From Pyrococcus sp. NA2 (GTDB lineage Archaea > Methanobacteriota_B > Thermococci > Thermococcales > Thermococcaceae), in contig NC_015474.1 of NCBI RefSeq assembly GCF_000211475.1, forward strand, positions 1,054,001-1,118,000: a stretch of DNA of 64,000 bases, written 5' to 3'. The position numbers and the translations under genes were made by a program. This document shows positions 23,554 to 57,904 of this stretch, in pieces. The stretch's first letter is position 1. The number at the start of each line of letters is the position of its first letter. The notes below the pieces were generated by a model. That model did not search any database and was not told where the DNA came from. It saw only the letters and a program-made list of their open reading frames with translations.

Positions 23554-24204
23554 GTGCCAAGAAGGGGTGCGATTGGTATTGGTACCCTTATAGTGTTTAT
23601 TGCCATGGTGTTAGTGGCTGCAGTGGCTGCAGCAGTGCTCATTAACACAAGTGGCTACCTCCAACAGAAGAGCCAAGCAACTGGAAGAGAAACCACTGAA
23701 GAGGTAGCCAGCGGAATAAAAGTAGAAAGGATTATCGGAAAGACCGATAGTAACAAGGAGTACATCCAGTACCTTGCTATATACGTCAGTCCAAATGCTG
23801 GTTCAGCTGGCATAGATCTCAAGAACACCAAGATAATAATCAGTAATGGAACTGTGCAGGCTGTTCTCAGCTACAATTCAAACGCCTACACAGATGGAGT
23901 TGTTTCAGACGTATTCAATACAAGCCTAGGTGCATGGAACAACCTGAATAATCCTACTACCGAGTTTGGTATCATTGTCCTCCAGGATGCTGATGACTCA
24001 GTTAAACAGAATTATCCAACTCTTAACAAGGGAGATCTTGTAGTTCTTACAGTACAAGTGGGTAACAATGGTGTCTTCGGAGCTAATGGTATTAAACCGA
24101 GAACTAAGATAATCGGCAAGGTAGTTCCTGAGTTCGGCGCTCCAGGAGTTATCGAGTTCACAACCCCAAGCACATATACTGATGAGGTTATGACCTTGCA
24201 GTGA
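23554..24204 (+). CDS. flaB: archaellin (flagellin) 1
   Basis: A 216-residue archaellin, the filament subunit of the archaellum. A class III prepilin leader 'MPRRG' is followed by the hydrophobic polymerisation helix '[24 protein letters not shown]'; cleavage by the prepilin peptidase FlaK is expected after G5. The C-terminal domain is a beta sandwich with NxS/T sequons. GTG start at 23554 behind AGGAGGTGCTGGGCA. It is the first gene after the regulated promoter. Its 5' 159 bases and a 59-base 3' block are identical to the next gene. Confidence 0.95.
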
Positions 24205-24383
24205 GGAGGTGAGAAAATGAGGAAGGGTGCGATTGGTATTGGTACCCTTATAGTGTTTATTGCCATGGTGTTAGTGGCTGCAGTGGCTGCAGCAGTGCTC
24301 ATTAACACAAGTGGCTACCTCCAACAGAAGAGCCAAGCAACTGGAAGAGAAACCACTGAAGAGGTAGCCAGCGGAATAAAAGT
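23565..24383 (+). repeat. exact 159-bp repeat shared by the first two flagellin genes
   Basis: Bases 23565-23723 are identical to 24225-24383 (offset exactly 660). A second identical block of 59 bases is 24121-24179 versus 24817-24875. Between them the genes differ strongly. The third and fourth flagellin genes encode almost the same N-terminus but with many synonymous changes. Confidence 0.9.
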
Positions 24384-24900
24384 TGTCAGCGTGTATGGTT
24401 ATGCTCCATACAGTTCAACAAGTGGAACATATGGGAACATTACTAGATTGGCAATTTACGTTACTCCAAATGCTGGTTCAGCTGGCATAGACCTCAAGAA
24501 CACAAGAATACTGCTCTCAGATGGTAGGATAGAGGCCTCTCTAGCTTACGACCCAGACACAATACAAGATGCCTACACGAATGCTTCAGTTAGCAACATC
24601 TTTAGCGAGACTATTGGAAGTGGAAGTGAGCTATTCAATTGGAGCAAGCTTGATGCTACTCACTTTGGTATTATCGTGATTCAGGATGCCGATAACTCAG
24701 TAAAGGAGAACTATCCAACTCTCAACAAGGGAGATATCGTAGTTTTGGCAGTTAATGCCGAAAAGGTATTCTCAACAACAAGTGGTATTCCACCAAGGAC
24801 TAAGATAACAGGAGAAGTAGTTCCTGAGTTCGGCGCTCCAGGAGTTATCGAGTTCACAACCCCAAGCACATATACCGAGAGCACTATGGAACTTCAGTAA
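24217..24900 (+). CDS. flaB: archaellin (flagellin) 2
   Basis: A 227-residue archaellin with leader 'MRKG' and mature start '[10 protein letters not shown]'. The N-terminal ~53 residues and the C-terminal ~20 residues are the same as in archaellin 1, while the middle is distinct ('[19 protein letters not shown]'). The ATG lies 12 bases after the previous stop, behind GAGGAGGTGAGAAA. Sequons such as N-I-T and N-A-S suggest glycosylation of the surface domain. It is followed by a T-rich gap before archaellin 3. Confidence 0.95.
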
Positions 24901-24929
24901 CTTCTTAGCCTTCTTTCCGTTAACTTCTT

Positions 24930-24950
24930 ACATCTTTTTTATTTTTCTTG
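24930..24950 (+). terminator. T-rich partial terminator inside the flagellin cluster
   Basis: The 73-base gap between archaellins 2 and 3 contains CATCTTTTTTATTTTTCTTG, a strong T-run of the kind that stops archaeal RNA polymerase. It could make a short abundant mRNA for archaellins 1-2 and leave less read-through for the rest of the operon. Confidence 0.55.
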
Positions 24951-24973
24951 ATTAACCAACGGGGGGTGATACC

Positions 24974-25621
24974 TTGAGAAAAGGAGCAATAGGCATTGGA
25001 ACATTGATAGTCTTCATTGCGATGGTATTGGTGGCTGCAGTAGCTGCAGGAGTTATCATAGGAACTGCAGGTTATCTACAACAGAAAGCCCAGGCTGCTG
25101 GTAGGCAGACAACTCAAGAAGTCGCCAGCGGTATAAAAATAGTGAATGTCTATGGGCATGTGAATACAACTCCCCCAAGCAATGGAACCATAGTTAAGAT
25201 GGCAATCCTCATAACTCCAAATGCAGGGAGCTCTGGCATTGATCTAAGCAATGTTAAAGTTGTCCTCAGTGATGGAAAGAGGTTGGCCGTCTATAACTAC
25301 AGTGGTTACCTTTACACTGGCAAGATACTTGACCTCTTCAATCTGTCTGAGGCTTGGGATAAAGCGAAGAATGGAAGCTTTGCAATAGCCGTCATAAATG
25401 ATATAGGATCACAGATGGAAGACACTCATCCAACGTTAGAGTGGGGGGACACGGTTGCATTACTACTGAGGACAGATGACGTGTTCACGTATGAAGGCAA
25501 GGGAGGTATTGGACCTTCAACTAAGATCGTTGGCAAGGTAATTCCGGATGCAGGTGCCGCGGGGGTTATAGACTTCACAACTCCATCAACCTTCGGATAC
25601 AATGTTATAGAACTACAGTGA
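24974..25621 (+). CDS. flaB: archaellin (flagellin) 3
   Basis: A 215-residue archaellin with leader 'MRKG' from a TTG start behind GGGGGGTGATACC. The N-terminal helix carries '[30 protein letters not shown]', slightly different from archaellins 1-2. It shares the motif '[14 protein letters not shown]' and the C-terminal '[10 protein letters not shown]'. It may have its own, weaker transcription or depend on read-through past the upstream T-run. Likely a minor or basal filament subunit, by inference. Confidence 0.93.
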
Positions 25622-25631
25622 GGTGGTCTAG

Positions 25632-26405
25632 ATGAGGAGGGGTGCGATAGGTATTGGAACGCTCATCGTGTTCATTGCCATGGTGTTGGTGGCCGCAGTA
25701 GCAGCGGGAGTCTTGATAACTACAAGTGGTTATCTACAACAGAAGGCCATGGCAACTGGTAGGCAGACAACTCAAGAAGTCGCCAGCGGTATAAAGGTTC
25801 TCGGCATCTATGGTTACATTAACGGAACACCTCCAGGAAGCAATATTACCAGACTTGCAATATACGTTGCCCCCAACGCTGGTAGCTCTGGAATTGACTT
25901 GGCCCATGCTAAGATAATAATAAGCAATGGTAAGAAGATGGCTGTGTATAGATATTATAAGTCAGACCTCGACAAGAATGAGAGTGCAAGTTACTTCCAC
26001 TATGTCGGGGACATCTCAGACGTATTTGCCTACAACCTGAGCAAGGAGCCCTATGGAACTACTCAAATAACCAGCTATAACACCAATAATTCCGTTGAGG
26101 CAGTATGGGAGAACCTCTACTTTGCGTACAAGAACAGTACAAAGATACTGTTTGGCATTGTCGTAGTTCAGGATGAGGACAACTCGCTAGAGCCTGCAGA
26201 TCATCCAACCTTAAGCTGGGGTGACAAGGCTGCTTTGGTTCTATGGCTAACCCCATTTGACAACGACAATAACCCAGGAAATGGATTTGGTTTACCTCCG
26301 GCCACTAAAGTTACAGGTAAGGTAATTCCTGAGAATGGTGCTGGAGGTGTCATAGACTTTGTAACCCCAGCGACATACACCTATAACCTAATAGAACTCC
26401 AGTGA
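25632..26405 (+). CDS. flaB: archaellin (flagellin) 4
   Basis: A 257-residue archaellin, the longest of the four, with leader 'MRRG' and the standard N-terminal helix. The extra length is a ~40-residue insert in the outer domain ('[22 protein letters not shown]' region and beyond) containing several sequons. The ATG follows GAGGTGGTCTAG and it starts 10 bases after archaellin 3. The distal position next to flaC is where hook-like or minor flagellins sit in other euryarchaea; that role here is inference. Confidence 0.93.
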
Positions 26406-31417: not shown

Positions 31418-33133
31418 ATGGAAAAAGAGAAGATCAGCATATTCGTGAAGGCAGACATAGATCCAAAGGATTACATAAGGAGAATATTGCTCCCTGGAAT
31501 AATTGGTTCAGGAGTTCTTTTCATTGCAATAGGTTTGTTTACAAGATTGATACAACTTCCAAGGGGACTCGTCTTCTTCATGTATCTAATCCCCGTCATA
31601 ATAGCAATCTACGTTGCAGCCTATCCATATCTCTCGGCCGACTCAAAAAGGTTGTCGATAAACTCGAAGCTCCCCTACTTCATAACTTACTTCGCCGTCC
31701 TCTCAACTAGTGAGATTGGGAGAACAGATATATTGAAGGTTCTTGCGAGTGACCCTAAGTTAGGAGCAATAGCCAGTGAGATGAAGAAGGTTTACATAAT
31801 AGTTGATAAGCTTCACAGGTCATTGCCGGAGGCTCTTAGGTTCCTGGCTAGGAGAACTCCTAGTAAGGTTTTTGCAGATTTCCTGGACAGATTAGCATAC
31901 TCGCTTGACAGTGGTGTTGAACTTAAGGACTACCTATTCCAGGAACAGCAAACGGTGATGGATGATTATCAAACCTTCTATGAGGGGGCTCTTTATGACT
32001 TGGACATATTCAAGGAGATCTATGAGTCAATAATAATAGCTATAGTGTTCGCTGGAGCCTTCATGATAATAGGTCCCATAATCACGGGTCAAAACATAGG
32101 TAGGTTGGCTCTCTACTTGGCCTTCCTAATCTTGGCAGCTGAGGTTGGATCCCTCCTAGTTATAAAGTACAGGATGCCAGAGGATCCAATCTGGGCTGAG
32201 AAGAGAGTTGAAACACCGAGGGATCGTAGAATTAGGAAGGCCCTGCTGATATCCGTAATGCTGATCCCAATTATATTCCTTGTCTATCTAATCTTGATAA
32301 GGCCAAGGTTTAACATTCCGACACCCTTCGTGATAGCCCTTGCTCTTACCCCCTTAGCCTACGCTGGTAACGTCGTGAGGAAAGAGGAGGCGATGATCTT
32401 CAGGAAGGACGAGAATTTCCCAGCCTTCATAAGGAGTTTGTCGTCATCTCTAGCTGCGAGTGGTGCCTCCTTACTTCTTGTTCTTAAGTACCTCAGTGCC
32501 CATGACTTTGGAACGCTCACAGATGATATAAGGGCCCTCTACAGAAGGTTGGCGGTTAGAATAGATTCCGTTAGGGCCTGGGACTTCTTCATAGCTGAAA
32601 CCGGTAGTTGGCTCATAGGAATATTTTCCGAGATATTCAGGGAGAGCCTAAGACTTGGTGCGGAACCAGATTACGTTGGAAAGGTGATAAGTAGGAACTT
32701 CGAGAGACTTGTGAGGTTGAGGAGGAAGAGAATTCAGAGCGTTTCAAACTTTATAGGTATAATCCTTGGACTATCTGGTGCATTCGCGTTCTCCCTGGCC
32801 GCCTCATTTCAGGTTGCCGTTACGATAAACTCGATATTCAGTAAGTTCCAAGTTCCAAGCCAATACATAGGTGAGATAATCCATCTTATCCCTCCAAGTG
32901 GCATAAGGCTTCTCGATATCTCTCTCCTTTTAATCATGATACTTCACTCACTTCTCTCGGCTTTAGCCATAAAGATTGCTGATGGAGGTAATTTACTTGC
33001 TTCCCTTTACTACTTCGTAATACTTCTCTGGGTGTTCGCCTTTGGAATGTACATAGGACAGGTTTTGATGGCCAGATTTATGAGCGTTGGAGGAGGTGGA
33101 CTAATACTACACTTCCTGGGGGGATTTGGATGA
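31418..33133 (+). CDS. flaJ: archaellum membrane platform protein FlaJ
   Basis: A 571-residue polytopic membrane protein of the GspF/PilC/TadC superfamily, the platform on which FlaI acts. Hydrophobic helices occur near the N-terminus ('GIIGSGVLFIAIGLF'), in the middle (two groups) and at the C-terminus, with two cytoplasmic basic domains ('LRFLARRTPSKVFADFLDRLAYSLDSG'; 'FERLVRLRRKRIQSVSNFIG'). ATG 31418 follows GAGGTGATTGGA. Its stop overlaps the next gene's ATG by 4 bases. Confidence 0.95.
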   Translation: MEKEKISIFVKADIDPKDYIRRILLPGIIGSGVLFIAIGLFTRLIQLPRGLVFFMYLIPVIIAIYVAAYPYLSADSKRLSINSKLPYFITYFAVLSTSEIGRTDILKVLASDPKLGAIASEMKKVYIIVDKLHRSLPEALRFLARRTPSKVFADFLDRLAYSLDSGVELKDYLFQEQQTVMDDYQTFYEGALYDLDIFKEIYESIIIAIVFAGAFMIIGPIITGQNIGRLALYLAFLILAAEVGSLLVIKYRMPEDPIWAEKRVETPRDRRIRKALLISVMLIPIIFLVYLILIRPRFNIPTPFVIALALTPLAYAGNVVRKEEAMIFRKDENFPAFIRSLSSSLAASGASLLLVLKYLSAHDFGTLTDDIRALYRRLAVRIDSVRAWDFFIAETGSWLIGIFSEIFRESLRLGAEPDYVGKVISRNFERLVRLRRKRIQSVSNFIGIILGLSGAFAFSLAASFQVAVTINSIFSKFQVPSQYIGEIIHLIPPSGIRLLDISLLLIMILHSLLSALAIKIADGGNLLASLYYFVILLWVFAFGMYIGQVLMARFMSVGGGGLILHFLGGFG

Positions 33134-35040
33134 AGAGGATCCTAGTCCTATTACTCCTAACATTAATGCTTCCCTTGGCCTCGGCATCAACTTACATAGG
33201 TTGGCTTGGTGTTGGAGAGAAAATAAGCTATGGTGACAATACGATTGAGATCGAGGACATCGGGGTAGATGGAAAAGTGCTTCTCGTCTTAGTGACCGAG
33301 GGTAAAATGCGTTACATCTCCTTGAAACCCGGAGAGAAAGCTGTGGTAAATAATATTAGTGTTAAAGTGGAGAGAGTGTTCTTGACAAATGAACCAATGG
33401 CCTACCTTAACATTACCTTTCCCCCAATACTTGTTAACCAAAGCATTGTGATTGGTAAGTACATCATGAAAGTTAAGGATGTTACCGCAGATTCGGTAAA
33501 GATAGCTATAAACGGGAAGGTATACACTGCTCCATCCTCAATTAAGCTTGATAATTATGAAATCTCAATCTCTCCCAGACCAGTAATATTCTCGGATTGG
33601 CTTAAAGTTGGAGAGAGCTTCACATATGAAGATTATGTTATCAAAGTAGTAGGTTCAACAACTATAAGTGTTGGTAATGAGTCAAGAGATGCGCTAATTT
33701 TAAAATTTGGTAAAAAATTTGCTACAAAGAAGTTCATAATACCGGAAGGTGAATCGGCTTTAATGGGACCTTTCATAGTTAAAGTCGTTAGGTCCATATG
33801 TGAAATACGAAATTACGCCTGTAACCTTGTTGCATACCTCAACATCATGCTGAGAGGCGTTAATGTGTCAGTTTTATATGACCCCTCAAGGATAGTTTGG
33901 GTGTATGAGGGTAAAGGATTCGTCGTTGGTCCAATGATAGTGACCCTGGAGGGAGTTACTGGTAACCTCGGATACGTAAGCATAATGAACAATTGTTGGG
34001 ATAGGCTCAAATCTGGAACCTTAAGGGCGAATCCATTTGTGATCCAAGGAATTGGATACGATGGACTAATGACGGGGATACTAGAGATTGGTAGCGATAG
34101 CAAAGGAAAGAAGGCAAAATTCATAGTTTTCTACAACGAAGAAAAGGAGAAGCCAAGGTATCTAGCATTTCTCAACGTAACAATCGAAGCCCCAACTACA
34201 GCAACGTTGTTCGTTCCATTCAATGTGACGGTGAGAATAAAAAATGAGGGTCTTAGCAAAGTGTTTGGGATAATATTAACGTTCAAGAGTAGTGAACATG
34301 TTAAGCTCATTGGAAGAAACAGGGTTTGTATAGACTCCCTTGACCCTGGAAAGAGTGTTGAGTTTAAGTTCACGCTCGTTCCTCTTAGACGAGGCAATGT
34401 AAACGTTGGAAGAGCAATTGTCAAAGCCCCAATTCCATATCCACTTGCCTGTGGAGGTCTAACTCTTGTAACGTTTTATTCGAACTCCCCAATCGTTCAG
34501 ATTGCCCCGGCTAACTTTACGATTCTCTTGGATTATAATAAGACGGCAACAGTTGGAATTCCATTTGATGTGGATATCTCCATCTTTGAGCCCTTCTATG
34601 GGAATGTAACCCTCAAACTTCCACCGAGCATGGGTCTACTTTACCATGGTGAACTCTTACAAGGAAATGTTGTGATTCCAGCAAGGAATGAGAGCCTGAA
34701 GCTAGTTGCTGTAACTCCAGGAAATTATACAATTCCAGTGATCTTGAGTTCAAACGGCATTGAACTTTCAAGAGAGAATATCAAGATTAAGGTTGTGGGA
34801 AAGAAATGTCAGGCCAGTATTGTGACAATAACAAGAACGAAGAATGTTGGTAACTTCACGGAGACTGTAACTCAGACAATTGAGAGAACTTTGAGCAAGG
34901 TAACAACGAAGACCATAACAAAAACCACCACAACTACGGTTGAAAAGAAGTCCTGGAGCTTGGTACCGTTCTTGATTGGATTCGTTGCTGGAGTTGGAAT
35001 TATAATGTTGATCGCGTGGATAATGGCTAGGTCCTCTTGA
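33130..35040 (+). CDS. secreted, C-terminally anchored surface protein coupled to flaJ
   Basis: A 636-residue extracellular protein. It has a signal peptide ('MKRILVLLLLTLMLPLASAS'), two tandem ~150-residue repeats that begin 'YIGWLGVGEKISYGDNTIEIEDI' and 'FSDWLKVGESFTYEDYVIKVV' (an S-layer-related sandwich), then CARDB/COG1361-like Ig domains, a Thr-rich stalk ('KVTTKTITKTTTTTVEKK') and a final membrane helix. Many NxS/T sequons point to glycosylation. Its ATG overlaps the flaJ stop, so it is translated with the archaellum operon. A role at the S-layer/archaellum interface is inferred from this alone. Confidence 0.8.
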   Translation: MKRILVLLLLTLMLPLASASTYIGWLGVGEKISYGDNTIEIEDIGVDGKVLLVLVTEGKMRYISLKPGEKAVVNNISVKVERVFLTNEPMAYLNITFPPILVNQSIVIGKYIMKVKDVTADSVKIAINGKVYTAPSSIKLDNYEISISPRPVIFSDWLKVGESFTYEDYVIKVVGSTTISVGNESRDALILKFGKKFATKKFIIPEGESALMGPFIVKVVRSICEIRNYACNLVAYLNIMLRGVNVSVLYDPSRIVWVYEGKGFVVGPMIVTLEGVTGNLGYVSIMNNCWDRLKSGTLRANPFVIQGIGYDGLMTGILEIGSDSKGKKAKFIVFYNEEKEKPRYLAFLNVTIEAPTTATLFVPFNVTVRIKNEGLSKVFGIILTFKSSEHVKLIGRNRVCIDSLDPGKSVEFKFTLVPLRRGNVNVGRAIVKAPIPYPLACGGLTLVTFYSNSPIVQIAPANFTILLDYNKTATVGIPFDVDISIFEPFYGNVTLKLPPSMGLLYHGELLQGNVVIPARNESLKLVAVTPGNYTIPVILSSNGIELSRENIKIKVVGKKCQASIVTITRTKNVGNFTETVTQTIERTLSKVTTKTITKTTTTTVEKKSWSLVPFLIGFVAGVGIIMLIAWIMARSS

Positions 35041-35953
35041 GTTCCCAATACTCATAGAGGACCTGCCCATCTATTACTCCATATATGTTTATTCCGTCAG
35101 TCTCATAGTGAATTATTGGACTTCCAACTATTCCGGCTATCTTCTTTAGACTCTTCATGTCTTCAACTATTACCCTCTCGGTTATTCCCGTTGGCCTCGC
35201 CTCTATGGCATTCCACTTCTTCTTCCTGGGCTCCCAGGTAATTAATGCTAGGATTCCAAATCCCAATGTCACAAGTGGAAATACAATTCTTGCCTTGGAA
35301 ACCGGCATTCCCAGGAAGTAGAAATCTTCCTTAACGGTTTTAACGATGTTGTTTCTCTTCTTAAGCTCCGTATTGTCTATGTAAGTTAAGCCACTTGCGG
35401 GATCGTTTATGATGGGCATTTCCTGAAGGAAAGTCTTGTTTCCTCTTTTCACTTCTGCGAGGATTTTAAGCTCATAGTTAAGCCTTGGAAGATCAAGTCC
35501 CTCACTTATCTTATCCCTTCTTGAGTTAACATCCGTCAAGTTTACATCGAAGTCTTTAATGAACATGCCATTTGAGAGCGAACCCGTGTATTTGAACAGG
35601 GTCTCATTCACGAGATATATCCTTCCCTTTCCCTTTGTAACATAAAAGGAGACGAGGCCTTCTAATGTGTAGTTTCCCTCTTCCCTTGGCGTAACCCTGT
35701 ACTTGTATTCCGCAAGTATGTAATCGGTTATCCTTGTTGGATAGTACTCCAACGAGGCGAACTCTCCATAGACGGTTGCGTTTGTGAAGTGCGCCTTATG
35801 CGTTAATATACCCTCTTCAGTTACGACACCTACAAGGATATGCCTATCAAATGATTCCGGCTTTGAGTAGGCAAATATTGATAGGGCCAGAAAGATCACG
35901 AACAGGCCTATAAAGGCATAGGATAATTTCTTCTTTTTCTTTTTAATCCTCAT
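35027..35953 (-). CDS. DUF5305 family membrane protein
   Basis: A 308-residue protein with an N-terminal membrane helix after a Lys-rich stretch, an extracellular beta-rich domain of ~190 residues ('ILVGVVTEEGILTHKAHFTNATVYGE'), a second helix ('ARIVFPLVTLGFGILALI') and a short cytoplasmic tail. This is the DUF5305 layout, found in archaea near TasA/SipW-like genes. Start behind AGGAGGAAAAAGA. It is the last gene of the minus-strand filament operon and overlaps the convergent surface-protein gene by 14 bases. Confidence 0.8.
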   Translation of the reverse strand: MRIKKKKKKLSYAFIGLFVIFLALSIFAYSKPESFDRHILVGVVTEEGILTHKAHFTNATVYGEFASLEYYPTRITDYILAEYKYRVTPREEGNYTLEGLVSFYVTKGKGRIYLVNETLFKYTGSLSNGMFIKDFDVNLTDVNSRRDKISEGLDLPRLNYELKILAEVKRGNKTFLQEMPIINDPASGLTYIDNTELKKRNNIVKTVKEDFYFLGMPVSKARIVFPLVTLGFGILALITWEPRKKKWNAIEARPTGITERVIVEDMKSLKKIAGIVGSPIIHYETDGINIYGVIDGQVLYEYWELKRT

Positions 35954-36338
35954 TCTTTTTCCTCCTGTGGCAGGGGCAGTTAACCCTTATATTTGCCCCT
36001 CCTCTATCCCAGGTTGCCGTTACAGTGTAATTTCTTCCTGGGATGATGGGGATCACCTTCTCATGACCCGGATCTATTCTCCCTATATCAACCCAACATT
36101 CGTGGTCACAGATGTTCCAGCTAAGATTCACATATATTGGGTAGTCTAAGTTATTCTCAATTGAGATCGCTGGAACGAGGCAACATGTTGTGATGCATTG
36201 CACATCTATGAACGGATCGTCGCCATAACCGACTACCACGTCTCTCTCAATTTCCATTCTATTGAAAGTCGATGAGCTACCAATGTTCATTGCAACCAGT
36301 GCCAGTGCTATTAACAGAATTCCAATTAGCCTTTTCAT
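35943..36338 (-). CDS. small secreted Cys-rich protein of the filament operon
   Basis: A 131-residue protein with a hydrophobic N-terminal segment ('LIGILLIALALVAMNIGSSS') and an extracellular beta domain holding seven Cys, including 'CITTCC', 'CDHEC' and 'CPC'. Paired cysteines suggest disulfides. The pattern 'FNRMEIERDVVVGYGDDPFIDV' echoes the N-terminus of the DUF1102 proteins upstream ('ASRDVTVAIVSDDNELIDL'), so it may be a related minor subunit or cap. ATG 36338 lies behind GGAGATTTTGAAA, overlapping region with the signal peptidase stop. Confidence 0.7.
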   Translation of the reverse strand: MKRLIGILLIALALVAMNIGSSSTFNRMEIERDVVVGYGDDPFIDVQCITTCCLVPAISIENNLDYPIYVNLSWNICDHECWVDIGRIDPGHEKVIPIIPGRNYTVTATWDRGGANIRVNCPCHRRKKNED

Positions 36339-36340
36339 TT

Positions 36341-37330
36341 TCAAAATCTCCTCAGGGGTATGTATTCGGGCTCACCCAGGAAGGGTTTTAGCATAATTAA
36401 ACCTACAAACACCAGGAATCCTTCAAGGAGTAATGGCAAATATGCGTTCTCACCATGAAGCCTTTCTATAACGCTTGTCGGTAGTATTGGGTAGTAGGAG
36501 TAAACCCTGATGCTTTCCGTGTATATCCTCGTTTCCTCGGGTACATGGATGGTTACCTTGATCTTCCTCTCCTCCTCTCCTGGCAACTTAAACGCCTCTT
36601 TCTTGACTCCCTTTCCTTCCACTATGAAGATCATTGGTATCTTAGCATAGTTCTTTACCGTAACATTCTCACTGAACGTACTCCCTGGGAGGTACCATCC
36701 CTCTCGCTGTCCTCCCGCAAGGGTAGATGCATAGGTTATCCCTATCTCTCTCCATGACATTGAGGCAGTGAACACTATTCCAATGGACAGGAGCGCTGCT
36801 ATTAACACATAAATTACGCCTGTATCAACAACTTTTCTTCTCCTCTTTTTCCTTTTCCTCTCTTTATCTCCACTGACTCCAATTATGGCTCCTCCAACTA
36901 GGGCTAGGCCTATTGCTAGGTAGTGAGAGTTCTTTGACTGTAGGTATTTTCCAACTCTAGGTATCTTAATTGGCCTTCCCCCAATTGTTATTACCTTCCC
37001 TATTATTTGATCCCTTTTTATTGGTGGGTTTTTATCATCTTGCTGATCGGTGGCAACGTTGTTGTCTCCCTTCGTTATGTAACCCTCACTCGTTATTGCG
37101 TAAATCCTGTGAACGGTCCACTTCCCGGAGAGGTTGAAGACTACTATATCTCCAACATCACCCTTTGAGAGTGGGTTTATGAAGAAGACGTCCCACCTAT
37201 TTATAGTAGGAGTCATGCTGTCAGAGTAAGCATAGGAAACGAATACGGGCCTCCCCATTATGAACCCTGCTATTGAGGGGACGAATATTCCCAACAATAG
37301 CAGGTCGAACACTATGTCGGAGGCCCTCAT
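36341..37330 (-). CDS. SipW/Sec11-type signal peptidase I fused to a C-terminal extracellular domain
   Basis: A 329-residue protein. The first ~150 residues are a type I signal peptidase with catalytic Ser in 'SDSMTP', His in 'TVHRIY' (Ser-His type of archaea, ER and SipW) and Asp in 'GDNN'. After a basic stretch ('KERKRKKRRRK') come a membrane helix, a ~100-residue beta domain ('GSTFSENVTVKNYAKIPMIFIVEGKG') and a last helix. The extra domain is unusual and may hold filament precursors. ATG 37330 follows GGGTGATGAAA. It sits directly after the DUF1102 genes, its probable substrates. Confidence 0.85.
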   Translation of the reverse strand: MRASDIVFDLLLLGIFVPSIAGFIMGRPVFVSYAYSDSMTPTINRWDVFFINPLSKGDVGDIVVFNLSGKWTVHRIYAITSEGYITKGDNNVATDQQDDKNPPIKRDQIIGKVITIGGRPIKIPRVGKYLQSKNSHYLAIGLALVGGAIIGVSGDKERKRKKRRRKVVDTGVIYVLIAALLSIGIVFTASMSWREIGITYASTLAGGQREGWYLPGSTFSENVTVKNYAKIPMIFIVEGKGVKKEAFKLPGEEERKIKVTIHVPEETRIYTESIRVYSYYPILPTSVIERLHGENAYLPLLLEGFLVFVGLIMLKPFLGEPEYIPLRRF

Positions 37331-37367
37331 TTTCATCACCCAAAATGTTGAAGGAGCAAAGGCTCCT

Positions 37368-37895
37368 TCAGCCTACACAAGCACCTGCAACTGCGTTTAT
37401 TTCAATCTGTATCTGCTGCTCTCCAGTTAGTCCAGTGTTGTTGAATATCATACCAACTGGAACGGGGTCTCCGTGATAGACCGTAAAGCTTATCTGCGTG
37501 TCGGGCCCAGCTATTGGGCTGTCGTAGTCCCCAGCGAACACTTCAACTGGAGCTTCAGCTTTTATGGTCACACATATTGGATAGTCTCCATTCTCGTTTT
37601 CCCAAAGCTCGTTACTAACCTCGAACATTTCCTCAAAGACATATATACTGTCGGTGCTCAACCCATCTCCATAGCCTGGGTAGTTGGGGTTGTTGGGCGA
37701 TATCTCTACGGTCAGCTTTCCATTGTTTAAGTAAGCGTAGGGTTGTGTTGGTGTTAGGTCAATTAGCTCGTTGTCGTCACTCACTATCGCTACGGTAACA
37801 TCTCTACTAGCTTCAAAGTACCTGAAATTGGCTCCAGCGCCAACTGCCAACATAAGCCCTGCAAGGAACAGGGCAATTCCAAACAACTTATTCAT
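37368..37895 (-). CDS. DUF1102 / TasA-AbpA-like secreted filament subunit 2
   Basis: A 175-residue secreted protein. The signal helix 'GIALFLAGLMLAVGAGA' is followed by 'NFRYFEASRDVTVAIVSDDNELIDLTP', the N-terminal segment that in TasA/camelysin-type proteins supplies the donor strand. It aligns closely with the neighbouring paralogue (for example 'NPNYPGYGDG' in both). Two late Cys residues could form a disulfide. The start follows GGAGGTATGAAAG. A structural subunit of an extracellular fibre is the best guess. Confidence 0.75.
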   Translation of the reverse strand: MNKLFGIALFLAGLMLAVGAGANFRYFEASRDVTVAIVSDDNELIDLTPTQPYAYLNNGKLTVEISPNNPNYPGYGDGLSTDSIYVFEEMFEVSNELWENENGDYPICVTIKAEAPVEVFAGDYDSPIAGPDTQISFTVYHGDPVPVGMIFNNTGLTGEQQIQIEINAVAGACVG

Positions 37896-37909
37896 CTTTC
37901 ATACCTCCT

Positions 37910-38509
37910 TCACGGAATAGGCTGTCCACAGTTGCCAGCTAGATACGCTGGCTCTGTGCCGAGCCTGTAAGCCTTTATTATCAACTTTCCATTCCAATAA
38001 TCTCCTGGTGAGTCTCCGTTTGCTGATAGGTCCATTCCTATCTTCACCATATCTCCCGGCTGAACAACAAAGCATACCCAGTCTCTCGCTGAATCGCTTG
38101 CGCTTGCGGGAGTTCCGTCGTAGGCTGAATATACATTCCTGTCTGCTCCGTAGAGTTCAATGTGTGAGTTCGTTGACTTGATTTCCACAACTATGGACAC
38201 GTCTTCCCATAGGTGGTTGCTAACTCCGAAAACCTCGTCGAAGTTGTACTCTGAGGCTGGGCTTATCCCATCTCCATAGCCTGGGTAATTGGGGTTGCTA
38301 GGTGAGAAGTCTATGACTAACTTTCCCGTAGTCTGGTTTATGTAGGAGTATGGTTGAACTGGTGTCAGGTCAATCAACTCAGTGTCGTCGGTAACTATGT
38401 CCCAATGGACGCTTCTGCTTGCGTTGTAGTCACTAAAGTTGGCCCCTACTCCAAGTACGAGGCCAAAAGCGGCCAAAAGGCCGAATATGGCAATTAAGTA
38501 CCTATTCAC
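37910..38509 (-). CDS. DUF1102 / TasA-AbpA-like secreted filament subunit 1
   Basis: A 199-residue secreted protein starting at GTG 38509 ('NRYLIAIFGLLAAFGLVLGVGA' signal; SD GGAGATG). The mature start 'NFSDYNASRSVHWDIVTDDTELIDLTP' and the block 'SPSNPNYPGYGDGISP' match the paralogue 14 bases downstream. An upstream in-frame ATG at 38542 is possible. It is the first gene after a promoter (TATA complement near 38575) and a short inverted repeat in the leader, so it is probably the most expressed of the operon. Confidence 0.75.
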   Translation of the reverse strand: MNRYLIAIFGLLAAFGLVLGVGANFSDYNASRSVHWDIVTDDTELIDLTPVQPYSYINQTTGKLVIDFSPSNPNYPGYGDGISPASEYNFDEVFGVSNHLWEDVSIVVEIKSTNSHIELYGADRNVYSAYDGTPASASDSARDWVCFVVQPGDMVKIGMDLSANGDSPGDYWNGKLIIKAYRLGTEPAYLAGNCGQPIP

Positions 38510-38533
38510 TTTTTCCATCTCCTGCTTAGTTTC

Positions 38534-38585
38534 GAGCCCCATATGCGAGGCTCAAACTCAAGTAGGGCAAAAATAGTATATAGGT
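38534..38585 (-). promoter_or_regulatory. promoter of the filament operon with inverted repeat
   Basis: Reading the complement, CTATATACTA (TATA, about 38573-38582) precedes GAGCC-(10 bases)-GGCTC at 38534-38553. The repeat lies between the promoter and the GTG start and could be an operator or RNA hairpin. Confidence 0.4.
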
Positions 38586-38615
38586 AGTTGGAGATTTAGC
38601 CCTGGTAATCCCTGA

Positions 38616-39074
38616 TTACCTAGTGGATATCCAATGAAAAATTGCCAAGGCTAGGAGTAATAACGAAAATATTGTACCTTCAGAGCTTGCTATGATAAGA
38701 GAAGCTAACAAAGTTAATGAAGAGAAAAAGAGGTAAGCTAAGGGCCACAAATTTCTCTCAACTCTGCCGTTCTTTATTGTGATGAATGTGCTAACCTCGG
38801 ATGGCATGTTCATGAGGTAAACTTTGCCCCTCTTGACGTTAACTATTCCCTCCCTTTGCAACTTTGGGAGGTGAGTCTGGACAAGGCTCACATAGACGCT
38901 TTTCCTATGTCTCCTACTCTCGTTTTTTTCAGCTCTGCAGATATAATTCACGAGCTCGCTTATGTCTGCTTCATTTCCATGCTTTCGAAGATACTCTATC
39001 ACCATCAATCTCCTATCGTTACCAAGAATAGTTGAGGATTGAGATTGAATTAACTTAGTCCAAAGAGTTATCAC
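38616..39074 (-). CDS. membrane-tethered wHTH regulator (DUF7344-like)
   Basis: A 152-residue protein. Residues 15-85 are a winged helix of the type seen in haloarchaeal DUF7344 ('GNDRRLMVIEYLRKHG', 'RRHRKSVYVSLVQTHLPKLQREGIVNVKRG'). The C-terminus has two membrane helices ('WPLAYLFFSSLTLLASLIIA', 'FSLLLLALAIFHWI'). GTG 39074 follows GGTGGT. A TATA complement (TTAATATATAATG) is at ~39112. It reads in the same direction as the DUF1102 genes 107 bases downstream and is their likely regulator. Confidence 0.75.
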   Translation of the reverse strand: MITLWTKLIQSQSSTILGNDRRLMVIEYLRKHGNEADISELVNYICRAEKNESRRHRKSVYVSLVQTHLPKLQREGIVNVKRGKVYLMNMPSEVSTFITIKNGRVERNLWPLAYLFFSSLTLLASLIIASSEGTIFSLLLLALAIFHWISTR

Positions 39075-39238
39075 TTCTACCACCACAAATCTTATTATTT
39101 TGCTCCTTCATTATATATTAACTTTTTGCTCTCAAAATTTGAGGATTTTTAGGGCGTAAATTAGTTTAGAAAAGCCTAATAAGCCTCTTATGAACCGTAA
39201 AGCTTAAAAATGGTATATATCGAGTGAAAAATGGGCGT

Positions 39239-39314
39239 AGCCCCGTGGTGTAGCGGCCAAGCATGCGGGACTCTGGATCCCGCGACCGGGGTTCGAATCC
39301 CCGCGGGGCTACCA
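39239..39314 (+). tRNA. tRNA-Gln(CTG)
   Basis: The acceptor AGCCCCG pairs with CGGGGCT. The anticodon arm GCGGGA-CTCTGGA-TCCCGC gives anticodon CTG. The T loop is GTTCGAATC. CCA is encoded. It marks the left border of the accessory island. Confidence 0.95.
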
Positions 39315-56906: not shown

Positions 56907-56913
<7 letters not shown>

Positions 56914-57374
56914 CCTATGCCGAGTAGCTCCCTAACCTTTATCGATATTATCCCAACTCTTGGGAATACGAAGAGCGCCTTAGCTTCCACCGCATATGCC
57001 GGAACGCAGTCGAGCACTCCGTCTGTAGTATAATAGAGATCGGGCACTGGATTGTGATCTCCCCATGTTATGAAGCACAGTTCTCTCTTTCCGTTAATAT
57101 ATATCGTCTTTATTCCCCTTACCCTGTGTATAATTGGATACCTTGAGATAGCACTTTTATAAACTATAACATCTCCCACTTTGATCTCTTCTGGCTTAAC
57201 TCCTTTCAACAAAACGACATCTCCCCTGTAAAATACGGGCTCCATGGAGCCACTGACAACGACGACCAGAGGTGTTTTTGTATGGAGTGCTATCCTCAAG
57301 CCGAAGTATATTGCGAAAGTTAAGAGCACGATTAAGATAGTTGAAATTATCTCTTTTGTTGTTTTTTCATCCAT
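56907..57374 (-). CDS. archaeal signal peptidase I (Sec11-type)
   Basis: A 155-residue membrane peptidase that removes signal peptides from exported proteins. An N-terminal helix ('ISTILIVLLTFAIYFGLRIAL') leads to catalytic Ser43 in 'VSGSMEP', His83 in 'IIHRV' and Asp106 in 'WGDHNPVPD', the Ser-His-Asp set of archaeal and ER enzymes. ATG 57374 follows GGAGGCACTGAA. It overlaps the end of the DUF531 gene by 28 bases. This looks like the general peptidase; the fused one at 36341 is locus-specific. Confidence 0.88.
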
Positions 57375-57904
57375 TTCAGTGCCTCCATAATTGTTGCTAT
57401 CCTCGCGGGTATTATACCTATTGCAGTGCAAGTTTCAAAACTCACTCCCATGCCATCCGTTATGTCCAAGTGGTACTTAGCAATTTTAAAGGCTTCCTTT
57501 GGAAGTCCATGCCTTCCAAGCCCTATAAGGAATATGAAGCTCTTTCCCCTTAGGGCCATCTCTGCTATTTCAATTGTCTTGACAACTTTCTCTCTTGAGG
57601 GTTTTGATGTTGTAGCAACTATCTCCCCAAATTGAGGTGGGAATCCCCTCTTTGGAAAGTCCAATAAGTGGAACTTTCCCGAGTTCGCAAGTTCTATCAA
57701 ATATCTTCCTCCCCCTCCGATCGTCGTGTTACTGGCAACTTCCTCAGCAATCTCCTTTTCGTCCTTCTCCTCAAATGGAAAGCCTATCAGGGCCAAGTGA
57801 AAATTGAATGCATAAGCAACAGGGGCAGCCCTAGCTATTGCCCTAAGGTGGGCTTCATGAATTCTCCTCGTATCGTAGGTGTTGTAAAGTCCAATGGTTA
57901 GCAT
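57347..57904 (-). CDS. DUF531 family protein (SPOUT-like fold)
   Basis: A 185-residue protein of the archaeal DUF531 family, related in pattern to SPOUT RNA methyltransferases: 'GLYNTYDTRRIHEAHLRAIARAA', then 'FIFLIGLGRHGLPKEAFKIAKYHLDITDGMGVSFETCTAIGIIPARIA' at the C-terminal knot region. The likely role is RNA methylation, unproven. The ATG is preceded directly by CAGGTG. Divergent from the helical-repeat gene, with only ~50 bases between starts. Confidence 0.78.
   Translation of the reverse strand: MLTIGLYNTYDTRRIHEAHLRAIARAAPVAYAFNFHLALIGFPFEEKDEKEIAEEVASNTTIGGGGRYLIELANSGKFHLLDFPKRGFPPQFGEIVATTSKPSREKVVKTIEIAEMALRGKSFIFLIGLGRHGLPKEAFKIAKYHLDITDGMGVSFETCTAIGIIPARIATIMEALKWMKKQQKR

Follow-up and report, generated by a model that had tools for sequence, protein, structure and literature searches.

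What is specified by the minus-strand gene set that abuts the archaellum operon of Pyrococcus sp. NA2? The genes occupy positions 35027–39086 of the window, as the whole 64,000-nucleotide stretch analysed here is called (NC_015474.1, positions 1,054,001 to 1,118,000, from a genome that forms a single contig of 1.86 Mb), and a preliminary description of this DNA had read them as an operon for a TasA/AbpA-like filament, complete with a signal peptidase of its own. The fold ranking, profile comparison and gene neighbourhood presented below support that proposal. The product of the operon is very probably a thin surface fimbria, not of type IV, that belongs with the archaeal Taf/AbpA (TasA-like) fimbriae. 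Of the readings considered, a donor-strand fimbria fits best, because the fold matches, a chain of homology to a solved pilin, loci shared with known fimbriae and a phenylalanine (Phe) at P2′ of the predicted cleavage sites all point to it. In order of transcription, and followed by two genes that lie outside the system, the features are:

38616–39086, minus strand: DUF7344 winged helix-turn-helix (wHTH) protein, probable regulator (PF24035, E 1.5e-17), with C-terminal hydrophobic/membrane segments; an inner GTG at 39074 is a possible alternative start
37910–38542, minus strand: DUF1102-B, predicted fimbrial subunit (PF06510, E 7.6e-55); signal peptide, then NFSDYNASR...
37368–37895, minus strand: DUF1102-A, predicted fimbrial subunit (PF06510, E 5.9e-55); predicted cleavage between A22 and N23, with Phe24 at P2′
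36341–37339, minus strand: endoplasmic reticulum (ER)-type Ser-His signal peptidase with a membrane-tethered beta-sandwich domain (TIGR02228, 57.1 bits, or 59.2 bits in the search of the genome; cut-off 51.85 bits)
35943–36344, minus strand: small secreted cysteine-rich protein, by profile match a divergent one-domain DUF1102 relative
35027–35953, minus strand: DUF5305-type membrane-anchored protein (PF17231, 21.6 bits, below the 29-bit cut-off)
33130–35040, plus strand: 636-aa secreted protein, last gene of the archaellum operon and convergent neighbour of the set
56907–57431, minus strand: second, housekeeping-type signal peptidase I, an open reading frame (ORF) of 174 aa (TIGR02228, 153.3 bits at 56928–57362)

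The genes named in the preliminary description, namely the regulator, two DUF1102 paralogues, the Ser-His peptidase and DUF5305, are all present on the minus strand and were confirmed by profile matches. Its account needs to be extended by the small cysteine-rich gene, which it did not name, and by the extra C-terminal beta-domain that the Ser-His enzyme carries between membrane helices. For the DUF5305-type protein, the Thermococcus homologue in locus L036 reaches 40.8 bits with PF17231, above the cut-off. The two DUF1102 proteins share 48% identity. By their coordinates, the genes are separated by 14 bp (DUF1102-B/DUF1102-A) and 28 bp (DUF1102-A/peptidase), or overlap by 4 bp (peptidase/small protein) and 11 bp (small protein/DUF5305), so that the last five look like one transcript; 73 bp, including a TATA-like stretch recognised by eye, lie between the end of the wHTH gene and DUF1102-B. 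The full set (wHTH, at least two DUF1102, peptidase, small protein and DUF5305) was found in all 20 Thermococcaceae regions, from six genera, that were picked for containing DUF1102, and this conservation argues against a chance assembly of genes. A tRNA-Gln (CTG) gene lies directly upstream of the wHTH gene on the opposite strand (39239–39314, plus).

AlphaFold2 was given an alignment of 49 sequences (from the window, of Thermococcus type and of Archaeoglobi type) to model the mature form of DUF1102-A. The model is nearly all beta, with a mean predicted local distance difference test (pLDDT) score of 83.8 and a predicted template modelling (pTM) score of 0.80, and mature residues 1–6 fall below a pLDDT of 50. 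Structure prediction had been suggested beforehand as a check for a TasA/AbpA-type fold, and the top VIA-align match was indeed the AbpA bundling pilus of Pyrobaculum calidifontis (7ueg; Z 8.1, root-mean-square deviation (rmsd) 2.7, 111 residues), with the Tafi pilus of Natrinema sp. J7-2 second (9p0a; Z 8.0, rmsd 3.0, 114 residues). FimA (Z 7.1), the Sulfolobus thread (Z 6.9) and the Hyper2 tube (9bab, Z 5.9) came further down; TasA is absent among the rows listed, which does not exclude a likeness to it. Foldseek placed Escherichia coli FimA first (E 3.5e-4) and listed 7ueg at E 1.6e-2 with a probability of 0.99. The AbpA and Tafi alignments start at model residue 19 or 20 and leave the N-terminal segment outside. 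As modelled, DUF1102-A is a pilin-type beta-sandwich whose N-terminus lies outside the fold, and residues 23 to about 41 of the precursor are the candidate donor strand. The likeness to AbpA is one of fold, at 12% identity, and a PDB sequence search with both DUF1102 proteins and their profile returned nothing credible, AbpA included.

The connection at the level of sequence leads instead to the haloarchaeal Taf fimbriae. Of the 49 DUF1102 members, 28 match NCBIfam TafA, at best with E 1.5e-6, and 10 match TafE. Nine sequences, of which just the one from L120 had been checked against TafE itself, went into a TafE-like profile. This profile recovers the solved Natrinema pilin 9p0a (E 2.4e-31) and matches the DUF1102 profile with a probability of 97.5% (E 7.2e-12, 171 columns), or 90.8% over 141 columns once signal peptides are removed; control comparisons gave 0.3%, and in one further case 28.9% with the match limited to the N-terminal hydrophobic region. 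TafA proper matched the DUF1102 profile at 91.6% over 41 columns. Judged by these profiles, the DUF1102 subunits are homologous to the solved Tafi pilin. The window proteins score 13 bits or nothing against TafA, below its curated cut-off of 190 bits. A TafA search of the window's own genome found nothing, but no control matched either.

The relationship extends to the neighbourhood. In the phylum to which G292 belongs, 344 genomes were sampled; TafA was found in 53 of them and DUF1102 in 54. Eight haloarchaeal loci were read: all five with TafA above its cut-off (L120–L124), the next best (L125), and two (L132 and L133) from genomes with both TafA and DUF1102 matches. All eight carry the DUF7344 wHTH and the operon-type signal peptidase, and in seven the peptidase match extends through the C-terminal beta-domain; in L132 a second matching piece covers profile positions 221–290 only. 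L120 encodes proteins that exceed the cut-offs of TafC, TafE and TafF, and the haloarchaeal subunits, too, carry Phe as the P2′ residue of their predicted cleavage site. They differ from those of the Thermococcales in an N-terminal twin-arginine motif (Tat-type, judged by eye). Other differences are that a scan of the window proteins gave no match to TafC or TafF, although divergent counterparts are possible, and that DUF5305 was matched in only two of the eight haloarchaeal loci, once marginally.

Further evidence comes from the predicted processing of the subunits. A cleavage pattern of a small residue, any residue, a small residue, any residue and then Phe, near the N-terminus, is shared by 124 of the 139 distinct DUF1102 sequences and by 44 of the 48 small-protein sequences. 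Fourteen of the 15 DUF1102 misses, as read from the list, belong to a third paralogue and one to an over-long start. In a looser scan the pattern was present in 57/67 family members against 11/48 other ORFs with a hydrophobic N-terminus, the latter being uncurated and possibly including spurious frames. In the alignment of the N-terminal segment, the cleavage site was located with a pattern in which Phe is obligatory; the 100% Phe seen there follows from this choice, and the two sets of counts above are the ones to rely on. Phe at P2′ is common to the subunits and to TasA; TasA is reported to be cleaved by SipW, which is a Ser-His enzyme (PMC10269814), and to have a donor-strand residue in F29 (PMC9674648).

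In several genera the third DUF1102 paralogue (L032:8513-8962, L039:8637-9134, L061:6008-6526 and similar) is encoded immediately ahead of the peptidase; the regions of the window's genus do not have it. Both the NFRxYxADR segment and the predicted cleavage site are missing from this paralogue, as would fit retention in the membrane.

The genome has two TIGR02228 matches, the housekeeping-type enzyme, which is too short for the added domain, and the operon enzyme. In the latter, Ser39 and His75 are invariant in 20 aligned sequences and, from the family pattern, are the predicted catalytic pair. Its catalytic part resembles pilus-associated SipA (4n31, Z 10.7) and other signal peptidases. Against the SipW equivalog model it scores 23.7 bits, where the cut-off is 190; the arrangement is nevertheless of the SipW type, with an ER-type Ser-His peptidase beside putative substrates that have an aromatic residue at P2′ of the predicted cleavage site. 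The peptidase gene is split across two overlapping frames at L066:4772-5838 (G073), by a frameshift or a sequencing error, and is split in the same way in L127. The latter is one of two loci for this operon in G292 (L126 and L127), one of which encodes a DUF1102 protein of 522 aa.

Taken together, these features suggest how the system may work. DUF1102-B, DUF1102-A and the small protein would be exported with cleavable signal peptides, which the Ser-His signal peptidase of the operon would remove. The N-terminus exposed in this way (in DUF1102-A, NFRYFEASR...) would then enter the incomplete beta-sandwich of the next subunit as a donor strand, head-to-tail. The DUF1102 proteins would polymerise, with the small protein as an adapter or tip, the membrane wHTH would regulate the operon, and it could be speculated that the peptidase beta-domain and DUF5305 anchor or assemble the fibre.

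Several observations weigh against a fimbria. The third VIA-align match of the DUF1102-A model is an unrelated axoneme protein at Z 7.8, a thin margin, and because the Z gap to unrelated beta-sandwiches is small, the fold alone is no proof. The DUF1102 scores seen for TafA and TafE lie far below the cut-offs, the highest TafA score seen being 27 bits against the 190 bits of the equivalog NF052520, and the match to TafA proper falls to a weak 37.5% once signal peptides are removed. Donor-strand insertion is itself a prediction, from homology and the unfolded N-terminus of the model. Lastly, the cryo-tomography work on P. furiosus mentions, in its available part, archaella as the only filaments (PMC5517150). 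This would also suit an account in which DUF1102 is a secreted, non-polymerising TasA-fold coat, S-layer (surface-layer)-associated lattice or matrix component that the peptidase simply matures. TasA is described, in the available text, as stable in the form of a self-complemented monomer (PMC9674648), and a strand at model residues 11–17 may self-complement in the same manner. We regard such an account as improbable, since both of the closest solved fold matches are filament subunits, conservation extends to the N-terminal segment, whose first residues the model leaves unfolded, and a fimbria locus has the peptidase and regulator in common with this operon.

That the subunits form a tube or cannula-like network, as the presence of the tube protein 9bab among the fold matches might suggest, is considerably less probable again, because 9bab ranks well under AbpA and Tafi and the gene content fits a Taf locus. 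The idea that DUF1102 is a secreted protease similar to camelysin, matured by a peptidase of its own, can draw on the camelysin/TasA model PF12389, but this model matches 2 of the 49 members, at a best E of 0.16, and none of the window proteins; there is no recognisable protease-family match and the neighbourhood is typical of fimbriae, so we give this idea hardly any credence. A donor-strand fimbria is the reading we keep.

The weak camelysin response also bears on the TasA side of the preliminary description. A TasA-like fold class and the Phe at P2′ stand, and, as far as the available literature goes, so does the likeness to the TasA–TapA–SipW system of Bacillus subtilis in having a dedicated Ser-His peptidase beside the subunits and a subunit with an accessory partner protein. 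The nearest kin, however, are the Taf fimbriae rather than TasA, and the peptidase has an added domain. The threads of Sulfolobus acidocaldarius (Saci_0406, 7pnb) are alike in the fold of a donor-strand filament subunit. Their assembly pathway is described as unknown in the accessible part of PMC9715654, whereas here a peptidase with an extra domain is part of the operon.

This extra domain (peptidase residues 195–280) is a six-stranded unit between membrane helices, modelled at a pLDDT of about 90–95, and includes a strongly conserved segment, STLAGGQREGWYLPGS. Its fold matches, MSP/VAP domains at Z about 5 and the Caf1M chaperone at Z 4.2, are at the level of the common immunoglobulin (Ig) arrangement. 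A DUF1102/TasA-type identity was considered for it and found unsupported, with profile probabilities of 16.4% (DUF1102), 0.6% (TafE-like), 0.1% (TafA) and 11.3% (small protein). Among the matches listed for 298 sampled relatives, those to the whole enzyme come from G292, the window's family and the family of G108–G112, and the other listed matches that were read cover mainly the catalytic part. This distribution, together with the haloarchaeal loci, ties the peptidase/beta-domain fusion to fimbria-type loci. It could tentatively be proposed that the fused enzyme, with its Ig/PapD-like beta-sandwich, acts as one machine that both processes and assembles the subunits of donor-strand fimbriae in archaea. 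Somewhat doubtfully, it might cut the subunit and at once shield or hand over the exposed groove or donor strand, one protein perhaps doing the work of a Gram-negative chaperone and usher. It is conceivable, at a similarly low level of confidence, that such a machine serves Thermococci, Archaeoglobi and haloarchaea alike, with the third DUF1102 paralogue as a membrane-held fibre base where present.

Of the remaining products, the small protein matches the DUF1102 profile with a probability of 98.6% over 137 columns, or 96.6% over 114 columns without signal peptides. Its own profile drifted into DUF1102 upon iteration (209 hits), for which reason each locus was assigned by its highest score and a profile comparison served to test the relation again; against the PDB the small-protein profile found nothing credible. 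The protein has 123–148 aa in the window's genus and some Archaeoglobi and 270–480 aa in most other genera, some with a DUF11 match. These comparisons suggest a divergent fimbrial subunit, a candidate adapter or tip. The DUF5305-type protein is a candidate anchor or assembly factor, and the DUF7344 wHTH is probably the regulator of the operon.

The subunit family is widespread. Of the 94 genomes of the family, 87 match PF06510 (DUF1102), as do 72 of the 74 that are of good quality; the match occurs in 88/115 of the phylum and in none of 14 control genomes. The whole set is present in 8/22 loci from named genome contigs, several of the remainder being short contigs, and the records with loci include Archaeoglobi, Archaeoglobus, Geoglobus and Thermococcus. 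No recognised wHTH was found in six Archaeoglobi-type loci (L032–L034, L042, L050 and L051), where flanking sequence is available. A universal need for the system is made unlikely by two family genomes, 98–99% complete, without a DUF1102 match (G025 and G040) and by two others with DUF1102 fragments only (G028 and G080). In G028 (G028:C1:1041618-1043630), operon remnants with several stops in the peptidase frame and truncated DUF1102 pieces suggest a recent loss. Viral contigs were scanned without turning up a relative, so that an origin from mobile elements is without support from them.

The archaellum operon runs on the plus strand from the archaellins at 23554 through the 636-aa gene, with four tandem archaellin-like genes (23554–26405, plus) ahead of the other archaellum genes. 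The 636-aa gene is placed like PF0329 beside flaJ in P. furiosus, as given in the available part of PMC4263178. The two systems do adjoin, as the preliminary description had it, but tail-to-tail rather than back-to-back, the 636-aa and DUF5305 genes being convergent with a 14-bp overlap. Archaellum genes adjoin the set in five of the 20 Thermococcaceae regions; these five are from the window's genus, and no region of another genus has the adjacency. The adjacency is a genus-level arrangement, and the layout does not imply a functional meaning.

A literature search gave no mention of DUF1102 or of any two of PF0324–PF0328 together with Pyrococcus, and no description of the operon was among the papers listed, the AbpA and Tafi structure papers lying outside that search. 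Adhesion and cell–cell contacts of P. furiosus are credited to archaella in the accessible parts of PMC4263178 and PMC5517150. If the present reading is true, nearly every species of the Thermococcaceae gains a fibre besides the archaellum, the role of which would have to be separated from the adhesion credited to archaella, and DUF1102, DUF5305 and DUF7344 receive a testable role. Finding the assembly machinery of archaeal threads has been called paramount (PMC9715654, available part), and the fused signal peptidase, common to haloarchaeal Taf loci, would be a concrete candidate for such machinery, in a family with genetic systems.

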